Assembly: GCF_000455125.1 (NCBI RefSeq) | Contig: NZ_AUWR01000008.1 | Span: 248,001-312,000, forward strand | Reading direction: 5' to 3' | Source: Mycobacterium sp. UM_WGJ | GTDB taxonomy: Bacteria > Actinomycetota > Actinomycetes > Mycobacteriales > Mycobacteriaceae | Length of the DNA stretch: 64,000 nt | Shown: positions 35,501 to 43,597 of the stretch, piece by piece | Numbering within the stretch: the first letter of the stretch is position 1 | Layout: every line of letters begins with the position of its first letter | Position numbers and translations under genes: made by a program | Notes under the pieces: generated by a model | The model's input: the letters and a program-made list of their open reading frames with translations, nothing else | Database searches by the model: none | Told to the model about the DNA's origin: nothing

Positions 35501-37007
35501 CGGATTCGGCCGCCAACTCGGCGTAGGTCAGGCTGCGGTCCTCGCCGGTGAGCGCTGGACTGTCCGGATGCGCTGCGGCGGCCGCGGCGAACAGCGCGGG
35601 CACCGAGGACTCGGGTTTGATGTGGCGGTCCGCCGGATCGGTGATGCGGCTCCGCTCGACGGGCAGCAGCACGTCCAGGTCAGCGACGCGCGGCCGCGCC
35701 GGGTCGGGAAGCTGGCGCAGCACCTGCAGCAACCGCTGCCCCAGATCGGGAACTGACAACTCCCCCAGCGCATCCGGGACCGCCTCGAGCAGCACGGTGA
35801 GCCGGCCGTCGCGGGGCGGGTAGCTGACCAGCGTCAGCGGGTAGTGCGTGAGGCTTTCCACCGTCACCGGGATGAAACGCACCCCGTCCGCAGTGGTCAC
35901 CCCGGCTGTCGCCGAGCCGATGGGCGCGTTCTCGAATACCAGCAGAGTGTCGAAGACCGCGTTGCTGCTGGCCCGCTGCACCGTCGACAGACTCAGATAG
36001 CCCAGGTCGCGCATGGCAGCGGTATCGCGTTGCAGCGCTTGACAGGTGGCGACCACCTCGGCGCGCGGCGGCGTCGACGCGGCCACCGGGACGGTGTTGA
36101 TGAACAGACCGACCATGGTCTCGACGCCGGTGAGCTGTTGCGGGCGGCCCGACACCACCGCGCCGAACGCCAGGTCGGTCCGGTCGGTGAGCCGGCCGAG
36201 CAGCACCGCCCAGGCGAACTGCAGCACCGTGTTCAGCGTCAGGCCGTGGCGGCGAGCCCACTCGGTCAGCCGCGCGGTGGCCTCGCTGTCCAGCGCGACC
36301 TCGTGGGTCTGCGGGAGCGCACTGCCCACCGCGAGCCGTTCTCCGCCGGCCAGCATGGTCGGGCCGCTCAGCGGAGCTAGGTAGTCGCGCCACCGCTGTG
36401 TCGCGGCGGCAGTGTCTTGGCTTGTCAGCCAGCCGATGTAGTCGCGGTAGGGGCGCGGGGCAGGCAGCGGGTCGACACCGCCGGCGCGGTAGATCGCCAC
36501 CATCTCGTCGAAGAACACCGCCATCGACCACCCGTCGATCAGTAGGTGGTGCACGGTGAGGATCAGCCGGTACTGCTCGGGGGCGGACCGGGCCAGCACG
36601 AAGCGCAGCAACGGTCCGCGGGCCAAGTCGAAATTCGTGGTGCGTTCGATGCGCGCAAGCTCATCGAACTCGCTTGGTGCAGCCTCAATTTCCCGCCACG
36701 GAAGAACCGCTGTCGCCGGGATGATCTGTACCGGGTGTGGCAGGTCGACGTCCCAGAACGATGCCCGCAGATTCGCATGCCGGGCCAGCATCGTCTCGGC
36801 ACTGCGGCGTAACAGCCCTGCGTCGACGGGACCGACGATGTCGATGACGAACTGCACGGTATAGACATCGATGCCGTCGACACCGCCTCCGTCATCGGTG
36901 GCGAGCTTGGCCAGCGAGAACAGTCCCTGCTGCAGCGGGGAGAGTGCCAGCACGTCCTCGATCGCCGCAGGGCGCGCAGTGCTGTGCGCAGACGCAGTCT
37001 CGGTCAC
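32592..37007 (-). CDS. mbtF: MbtF, mycobactin nonribosomal peptide synthetase
   Basis: 1471 residues, near the length of M. tuberculosis MbtF. Domains: C about 15-450 (SPLQQGLFSL, active HHLLIDGWS); A about 470-945 (LTYAELAAESAALA, VIFTSGSTGEPKGV, LSFDASWQPL, NCYGPTETTVEA, YRTGDLVRR, KVRGYRVEIAEVEAAL); T about 960-1040 with Ser in LGLDSIVAL; and a terminal C/E-like domain about 1055-1471. The terminal domain has only CGHVLALDPVSW where HHxxxDG is usual, so it is probably not a normal condensation site. It adds the last lysine-derived residue, later cyclised to the azepinone. GTG 37007 overlaps the mbtE stop as GTGA. Confidence 0.96.
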   Translation of the reverse strand: MTETASAHSTARPAAIEDVLALSPLQQGLFSLAKLATDDGGGVDGIDVYTVQFVIDIVGPVDAGLLRRSAETMLARHANLRASFWDVDLPHPVQIIPATAVLPWREIEAAPSEFDELARIERTTNFDLARGPLLRFVLARSAPEQYRLILTVHHLLIDGWSMAVFFDEMVAIYRAGGVDPLPAPRPYRDYIGWLTSQDTAAATQRWRDYLAPLSGPTMLAGGERLAVGSALPQTHEVALDSEATARLTEWARRHGLTLNTVLQFAWAVLLGRLTDRTDLAFGAVVSGRPQQLTGVETMVGLFINTVPVAASTPPRAEVVATCQALQRDTAAMRDLGYLSLSTVQRASSNAVFDTLLVFENAPIGSATAGVTTADGVRFIPVTVESLTHYPLTLVSYPPRDGRLTVLLEAVPDALGELSVPDLGQRLLQVLRQLPDPARPRVADLDVLLPVERSRITDPADRHIKPESSVPALFAAAAAAHPDSPALTGEDRSLTYAELAAESAALARTLAARGIGPEDRVAIALPRSLDSVIAILAVLQAGAAYVPVDIGLPEVRIDSILRQAGPKLTLTVPLLSELRAEDAVQMPTPVVIHPDSAAYVIFTSGSTGEPKGVVGTHRALASYFADHQQRMYAPAVARLGRPLRVAHAWSLSFDASWQPLVGLLGGQCVHLFSTDEMRDAEAIIDGIRRHRLDMIDTSPSMFTQLFDAGLLDAGSDHRLTVLALGGEAIAPHTWARLRAAPSTAVHNCYGPTETTVEAVVADVADTDVPVIGEAVRGMSAHVLDSALREVPDGVAGELYLAGVQVTRGYLGRAGATAARYVADPFRAGGRMYRTGDLVRRRTDGRLVYLGRADDQVKVRGYRVEIAEVEAALAAVPGVTAAAVLPVQGPAGTQLAGFVTGAQVDITRVRAEIGSRLPSYLMPARITAVESMPLTANGKLDTAVLLELAGPFVSGGVAAATDTERVLVELLAEVFAGPEGADAVAGAAPGVETDLRELGLDSIVALSMVRAARRRGLPLRPRTILSCNTIRDVAADLDREMAEAGEAAQRDGSQAPDGPIPLLPAGRWLYQYGDPRRLGQVEAIRLPDDTAPEQLRAALAAIVAAHPLLRARLDTAELTLYPIEPVDVLTEVTVAAADLSVVTAHGTRLLESLDPENGVMLRAVWLRAPDSAGVLMLCGHVLALDPVSWQVILGELHAALTGAEPLPERSGYRRWAAALQERAQTLDTVDFWAAQLAGGDPDLGARRVDPARDRASDLTVSVTVADPGLTAALSALPVPMHDLLVAAIARMVTAWRARRGQAGPVPLLALETHGRAEEVVTGVDTADIAGLLSAIYPLRVPQADPAGVAGALAGIPGGGIDYGLLAYLRADTAERLAAQPGPQVLLNYLGRVDRAGGGPAVAPDLIAGLPSVPEPGQAVRHELSVFAAVADLGAGQALMTQWRTLPDILGDAEIVQLQELFTDSLGDLVEELR

Positions 37008-43597: not shown

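Follow-up and report, generated by a model that had tools for sequence, protein, structure and literature searches.

Mycobacteria take up iron mainly by means of mycobactin. To our knowledge, the published mycobactins, including those of relatives of M. terrae and M. fortuitum, possess the standard core and no additional residue. We describe here the gene mbtE of the mycobactin (mbt) cluster in a stretch of 64,000 nucleotides from Mycobacterium sp. UM_WGJ (assembly GCF_000455125.1, contig NZ_AUWR01000008.1, positions 248,001 to 312,000), hereafter called the window, whose own numbering is used throughout. In addition to the adenylation (A) domain of its lysine slot, A1, this MbtE contained a second complete A domain, A2. 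We propose that, working in cis, A2 probably loads the central hydroxy acid of mycobactin onto the second carrier (T) domain, T2, and so provides an alternative to the polyketide synthase (PKS) MbtC/MbtD. In the open-licence literature we found no description of a second MbtE A domain or of PKS-less mycobactin clusters, although an earlier description is possible.

The available passages of PMC9505556 ascribe the central hydroxy acid of mycobactin to MbtC/MbtD. A comparable enzyme is NbtD, from the nocobactin pathway of Nocardia, with the order C-A-T-C-T (C, condensation domain), which according to the available part of PMC7413640 probably mediates the ester linkage to an acid made by a PKS. 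NbtD occupies the same position in the line as MbtE, and its lysine C-A-T is followed by a C and a T that this source credits with the ester linkage; it differs from the window MbtE by having no A2, its acid coming from the PKS NbtB/NbtC. By analogy, the second C and T of MbtE (C2 and T2) look like an ordinary central, ester-forming module. A2 itself resembles A domains of StsA and of enniatin synthetase, in which an aliphatic residue replaces Asp235 (GrsA numbering) and the loaded acid ends in an ester (available passages of PMC11253843 and PMC11355689). These enzymes load alpha-keto or alpha-hydroxy acids, and the StsA module possesses a reductase domain, whereas A2 has Glu236 and Pfam found no reductase in MbtE. 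The order C-A-T-C...T, with T2 and the C-terminal tail conserved as in the window MbtE, also occurred in PKS-bearing relatives, for example M. bacteremicum (L049), M. hippocampi (L050), M. arenosum (L052) and Segniliparus rugosus (L059); A2 was reduced to fragments in the first three, which are Mycolicibacterium, and was undetectable in Segniliparus.

Architecture of MbtE

The mbtE frame extended over positions 43597..37004 of the minus strand and encoded 2197 amino acids (2212 if the alternative in-frame ATG at 43642 is used). Pfam reported two Condensation, two AMP-binding and two AMP-binding_C matches and PP-binding in two stretches, in the order C-A-T-C-A-T. The first module comprised C1 (42113..43399, PF00668) with the motif HHIAWDD at residue 197, the A1 core (41030..42034, PF00501) with the pocket DVGHPGFVNK, and T1 (40352..40543, PF00550) with LGGHSL at residue 1042. 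The assignment of A1 to lysine is inferred from its position in the pathway; its lysine-slot pocket was conserved, with Asp235 in 117 of 117 A1 rows (a row being a distinct MbtE sequence, as defined below). In the second module, C2 (38906..40279, PF00668) had the motif HHIAADH at residue 1241, and its proposed ester-forming role is drawn from the available description of NbtD (PMC7413640). A2 (37358..38824, core 37805-38824, PF00501) showed the pocket LEMTVSNGAK, with A3 at 38378-38410, the A4 pocket at 38252-38284 and the A10 lysine at 37379-37414. T2 (37133..37345, ends approximate) was recognised by two stretches of PF00550 and by VGGDSI at residue 2117. The alignment revealed a conserved C-terminal tail, PMSxSGLSxxxLAxLT (37007..37087), which may dock to MbtF. 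All these features lie on the minus strand.

An earlier reading of this DNA, made from the letters alone (the sequence-only reading), had described two full C-A-T sets with intact HHxxxD and carrier Ser residues, which the Pfam order and the motifs confirmed. The C-A-T first module with its conserved pocket, C2, T2 and the tail identify the window protein as an MbtE, as does its position in the mbtA-mbtG cluster beside MbtD and MbtF, and among the matches listed the tail profile hit this genome once at E <= 1e-22. The same architecture was present in two relatives assembled as single contigs, G022 (93% identity) and G016 (88% identity), and a full A2 was found in 64 of 131 MbtE rows. A misassembly of two genes, which the sequence-only reading had considered, is thus very unlikely.

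The window MbtE was 84% identical to that of locus L165 (genome G166), where L164 is a second mbt locus. In L164 and L053 (Mycolicibacter sp. MYC340), MbtD and MbtE lay in one open frame of 3269 amino acids in which the C1 HHxxxD pattern was not found, L165 being in the same genome as a second mbtE close to that of the window. The C1 pattern was similarly not found in the MbtEs of L016, L129 and L148, whose later domains look complete.

The Pocket of A2

The GrsA pocket positions were set from the motif positions and cross-checked on an alignment to LgrA; in the HMMER alignment of A2 to the solved LgrA domain, the Leu fell on the Asp column. Position 235, where Asp is expected, was Leu and position 236 was Glu in all 64 distinct MbtE rows with a full A2. 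The three other A domains of the window line (MbtE A1, MbtB and MbtF) all kept Asp235. According to the available part of a review (PMC11355689), Asp235 binds the alpha-amino group of the substrate. In A domains for alpha-hydroxy or alpha-keto acids, residue 235 is smaller or hydrophobic (PMC11253843); A2, with its aliphatic residue, resembles them, although the available text names Ala, Gly and Ile and not Leu. The beta-amino acid A domains described there keep Asp235. Because of Leu at 235 and of the role given to Asp235 in the reviews, the A2 pocket is not an ordinary alpha-amino-acid pocket, and an ordinary amino acid should not be accepted.

The motifs of a functional adenylation domain were kept in 64 of 64 rows: A7 (YRSGD) and A10 (SGKLNR, with the catalytic lysine) were identical throughout, and the A3, A5 and A8 cores were present as TSGSTG.PKG, G[A/S]TET and RGFR. 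The pocket code was LEITVCAGAK in 22 of 22 rows from loci without the PKS and LEMTV[G/S]NG[A/G]K in 42 of 42 rows from PKS-bearing ones. The code change, which amounts to three pocket differences between the two groups, coincided exactly with the absence of the PKS. A PDB look-up of A2 returned A domains of many specificities and gave no hint of the substrate.

Distribution of A2 and of MbtC/MbtD

Relatives of MbtE were first searched in 41 genomes (the window genome and 40 relatives), in which same-genus MbtEs occurred as long and short forms. In an alignment of the window MbtE with 18 others, the long forms had a full A2, a middle group had only fragments of its C-terminal half, and a third group showed nothing recognisable between C2 and T2. 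T2 and the tail were present in every aligned row reaching the gene end (L028 was cut by a contig end). The retention of C2 and T2 in MbtEs devoid of A2 goes beyond the sequence-only reading, as does the usual attribution of the central acid to MbtC/MbtD.

A profile of T2 and the tail matched at least 320 of 396 genomes of the genus, and the follow-up of this survey covered 160 of 171 remaining genomes. The regions fetched, 100 hand-picked to span frame lengths and 20 more, are not a random sample. After merging of identical cores, 131 distinct MbtE rows were obtained, some genomes contributing two; as the rows were chosen to span frame lengths, 64 of 131 with a full A2 is not a frequency. No MbtE frame was obtained from L166 and L225, and L228 (distance 845) was not an MbtE and was excluded from the tree. 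The distance from the C2 HHxxxD to the T2 Ser fell into groups of 877-923 residues (full A2), 527-545, 449-471 and 412-436 residues (shortened A2) and 361-374 residues (no A2). The 131 rows were divided into 42 with A2 and PKS, among them the window, 22 with A2 and no PKS, 42 with a shortened A2 and the PKS (relic rows), and 25 with the PKS and no A2. An A2 profile matched the C2-T2 linker in all 41 mycobacterial relic rows (40 at an independent E-value, i-E, <= 0.001 and one at 0.0026) and in none of the 25 no-A2 rows at i-E <= 0.05. The remaining relic row, Gordonia L054, was counted as such by its longer linker; its profile match was marginal (i-E 0.012) and Pfam found no A domain there.

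Both mbtD (at least 80%) and mbtC (at least 50%) were within the fetched locus for 37 of the 42 A2 and PKS rows, 0 of the 22 PKS-less rows, 32 of the 42 relic rows and 21 of the 25 no-A2 rows. In L129 and L199, the MbtD match consisted of two separate alignments. For the remaining 19 PKS-bearing rows, a genome search found MbtD in 15 (14 short loci, and L218 with MbtD 24 kb away); of the other four, L132, L054 and L245 were truncated where the locus or the contig ends, and L175 was decayed. The 22 PKS-less loci showed no partial mbtC or mbtD match at E <= 1e-20, and three of these rows, on short loci, were confirmed by longer stretches (L257-L259).

At the level of the genus, an MbtD match at E <= 1e-150 was obtained in 291 of 396 genomes, all of which also carry the MbtE tail, and among the matches listed 29 genomes had the tail and no MbtD match. 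As this search scored two candidates per genome and may have missed some, the loci of the 29 were checked, except that of G359, where the only match was a weak one within a frame of 7576 aa that we regard as a different protein. In 22 of the 29, mbtA, mbtB and mbtE were in line, mbtB being directly followed by mbtE with no mbtC or mbtD, and A2 was full in all 22. mbtG was seen in 16 of them, the other six fetched stretches ending inside mbtF. Three of the 29 (G061, G088 and G231) were false negatives with divergent mbtC/mbtD and an MbtE without A2. Another three were decayed clusters (G092, G113 and G150); G150, which is L175, is among the 42 relic rows, and G092 and G113 are in no count. A genome-wide PKS search in 21 of the 22 PKS-less genomes gave only remote matches (best E 9e-53 to 5e-78), and the other 20 of the 41 genomes in this search had matches at E <= 4e-216. 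Among the collected rows, no apparently intact cluster lacked both A2 and the PKS.

Type VII secretion genes were found beside the cluster in both PKS-less genomes examined and a chorismate-binding enzyme in one; because of these neighbours, the PKS-less loci look like real mycobactin loci. In the flanks of these two clusters, no acid-supply gene was recognised among the nine frames annotated. Outside the genus, no high-scoring tail match with a dimodular-length frame was found among 348 genomes of the order, judged on frame length and score only.

Some loci were of separate interest. Five genomes (G129, G046, G232, G235 and G238) had two MbtE-tail matches each, one in a dimodular-length frame and one in a short frame; the loci of the first three genomes are L199-L204. 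Such cells apparently have two loci of the mycobactin type. In the decayed clusters L242, L244 and L175, mbtB, mbtD or mbtE was missing or fragmented.

Order of Events and Selection

Trees were built without the A2 columns, using FastTree for the 131 rows and an IQ-TREE quick tree for 52 rows. In both, the no-A2 rows were outside, and among the other mycobacterial rows the window clade, with A2 and PKS, branched off first. One clade (support 100) comprised the PKS-less rows and another (support 99) the mycobacterial relic rows; a second A2 and PKS clade grouped with them. Long-branch warnings (Gordonia, Segniliparus and others) make the outer part of the tree unsure. The simplest history would place A2 beside the PKS in the ancestor of the group, after which the PKS was lost once and A2 once.

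Selection was estimated as omega on pairs hand-picked as tree neighbours. For A2 the median was 0.079 in the PKS-less clade (8 pairs) versus 0.143 in the A2 and PKS rows (15 pairs; p=0.0006), and no such difference was seen for A1 (p=0.32) or C2 (p=0.73). The lower omega of A2 in the PKS-less clade is expected if A2 is the sole supplier there. Over all compared pairs, A2 omega ranged from 0.06 to 0.25.

The mbt Cluster around MbtE

The genes mbtB, a cutinase-like gene, mbtC, mbtD, mbtE, mbtF and mbtG follow one another on the minus strand, mbtE beginning at the end of mbtD and finishing at the start of mbtF. MbtB (49919..53335) had the Pfam order carrier-C-A-T, in which we take the C domain to be a cyclization domain. 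MbtC (46532..48004) was a ketosynthase with DTSCSS present. MbtD (43590..46538) was a PKS with AT, KR and ACP whose catalytic residues were present; its match to NF037940 (1080.7 bits) was slightly below the cut-off of 1150. MbtF (32592..37007) had the Pfam order C-A-T-C, and a lysine N-oxygenase resembling MbtG (PF13434) was located at 31303..32691, both on the minus strand. On the plus strand, 53422..54960 encoded a free-standing aryl-acid adenylating enzyme (TIGR02275, 546 bits, below the cut-off of 723.55), presumably MbtA, a name given by its position.

Apart from MbtA, the assembly line thus possessed four A domains, two in MbtE and one each in MbtB and MbtF, a count in which the sequence-only reading was right by Pfam. 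A single C-T slot, C2-T2, was available between the two lysines, and no further C domain that could serve an extra residue was found.

The terminal C domain of MbtF (32979-33761, minus strand) seems to lack HHxxxD, the only such motif found in MbtF being at residue 153. The cutinase-family protein (PF01083) is encoded at 49188-49877 (minus strand), between mbtC and mbtB. Just past mbtA, positions 55633-61926 (minus strand) contained genes of ABC transporters, among them one that carries a siderophore-interacting FAD domain, together with a gene for an acyl-CoA dehydrogenase; we take this set to resemble IrtA/IrtB and MbtN.

Discussion

We read A2 as an in-line supplier because there is one C-T slot between the lysines and because NbtD offers a precedent. 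In the mechanism that we propose, C2-A2-T2 would form the module for the central residue of mycobactin: C2 would join the first lysine, carried by T1, to the central acid on T2, and MbtF would then attach the second lysine. Where MbtE has no A2, the central acid presumably comes from MbtC/MbtD. A2 would be a functional adenylation domain that takes a carboxylic acid with no amino group on its alpha carbon. This is most likely the beta-hydroxy acid itself, since a hydroxyl is required at this slot to form the ester. The window strain would keep both suppliers, the related clade only A2, and a large clade only the PKS together with a relic of A2. The expected core would consist of salicylate, Ser/Thr, Lys, one central acid and Lys, and could be mixed at the central position. 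The extended form of this model, in which there are two routes to the central acid, the 22-locus lineage makes a PKS-free mycobactin with an A2 of a new specificity class (LEITVCAGAK) that activates the beta-hydroxy acid in its free form, and the window species uses the two routes in parallel and makes mycobactins with two central acids, seems to us evenly poised between right and wrong.

Several observations weigh against supply of the central acid by A2. Glu236 is unusual, and no A domain with an established substrate was found to share the code of A2. The loss of the PKS and the loss of A2 are each one event in the tree, so that few independent events stand behind both the complementarity and the code switch. 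The decayed clusters G113 and G092, without MbtD, carry no unbroken A2 and were set aside as broken. The reverse selection test (pair L132/L149 skipped) did not support a redundancy of A2 and the PKS: relative to A1, MbtD was not more constrained where A2 had been lost (2.58 vs 2.60, p=0.64), its raw omega was even slightly higher there (0.259 vs 0.215, p=0.045), opposite to expectation, and MbtC did not differ between the A2-lost and A2-bearing groups (p=0.23). Finally, the PKS catalytic residues are present in the species having both, and a separate role of A2 there is unproved. From the two selection tests, it looks as if the PKS is needed wherever it is present and A2 is most needed where the PKS is absent.

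The PKS not being relaxed beside A2, as if the two had separate jobs, also speaks for the main alternative, itself rather unlikely, in which A2 loads a different central acid, such as a beta-amino or other carboxylic acid. Its products would then differ from those of the PKS by an amide in place of the ester or by another side chain, and the window strain would make a mixture. With an aliphatic residue at 235, Glu236 could make contact with a substituent on the beta carbon; acidic residues occur at position 236 in some beta-alanine codes. That A2 can change its substrate is suggested by the three pocket positions that differ in the PKS-less clade. However, Asp235 is kept in the beta-amino acid domains mentioned above, and C2 is expected to form an ester with the PKS products in PKS-bearing species. 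It is improbable that A2 is silent or vestigial, a domain being lost in the way seen in the relic clade, as the sequence-only reading had offered for one of the modules. That one clade lost most of A2, leaving fragments, and that A2 omega exceeds A1 omega in the A2 and PKS pairs (median ratio 1.53) agree with this idea, but omega in these pairs is 0.07-0.25, the motifs of A2 are intact and its pocket is nearly invariant over 42 rows. In addition, the 22 PKS-less rows have no neighbouring MbtD and show the lowest omega. A pure relic was accepted for the relic clade and rejected for the full A2.

The leading claim of the sequence-only reading, an additional amino acid in the product making four on the line, is very unlikely. 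Four A domains with catalytic motifs would favour it, but Asp235 is absent from all 64 A2, the two lysines are separated by one slot with no extra C domain, and only fragments of A2 are left in 41 mycobacterial rows in which C2 and T2 persist. The suspicion that A2 has a chemical role was reasonable, and it is the added amino acid that is not supported. Loading by A2-T2 of a starter acid then extended by MbtC/MbtD, to which the joint presence of A2 and the PKS in 42 rows could point, is extremely improbable, as 22 rows have A2 and no PKS to feed and 67 have the PKS without a full A2; it was rejected on the PKS-less clade.

If A2 can supply the central acid, as we think probable, the accepted mycobactin pathway would be incomplete for many species and the existence of the PKS-less lineage would be explained; any plan to target MbtC/MbtD with drugs would be irrelevant to it. 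The group would offer a natural series of coexistence and reciprocal loss of a cis adenylation domain and a trans PKS serving one slot. It would also provide a candidate code by which adenylation domains recognise beta-hydroxy acids.
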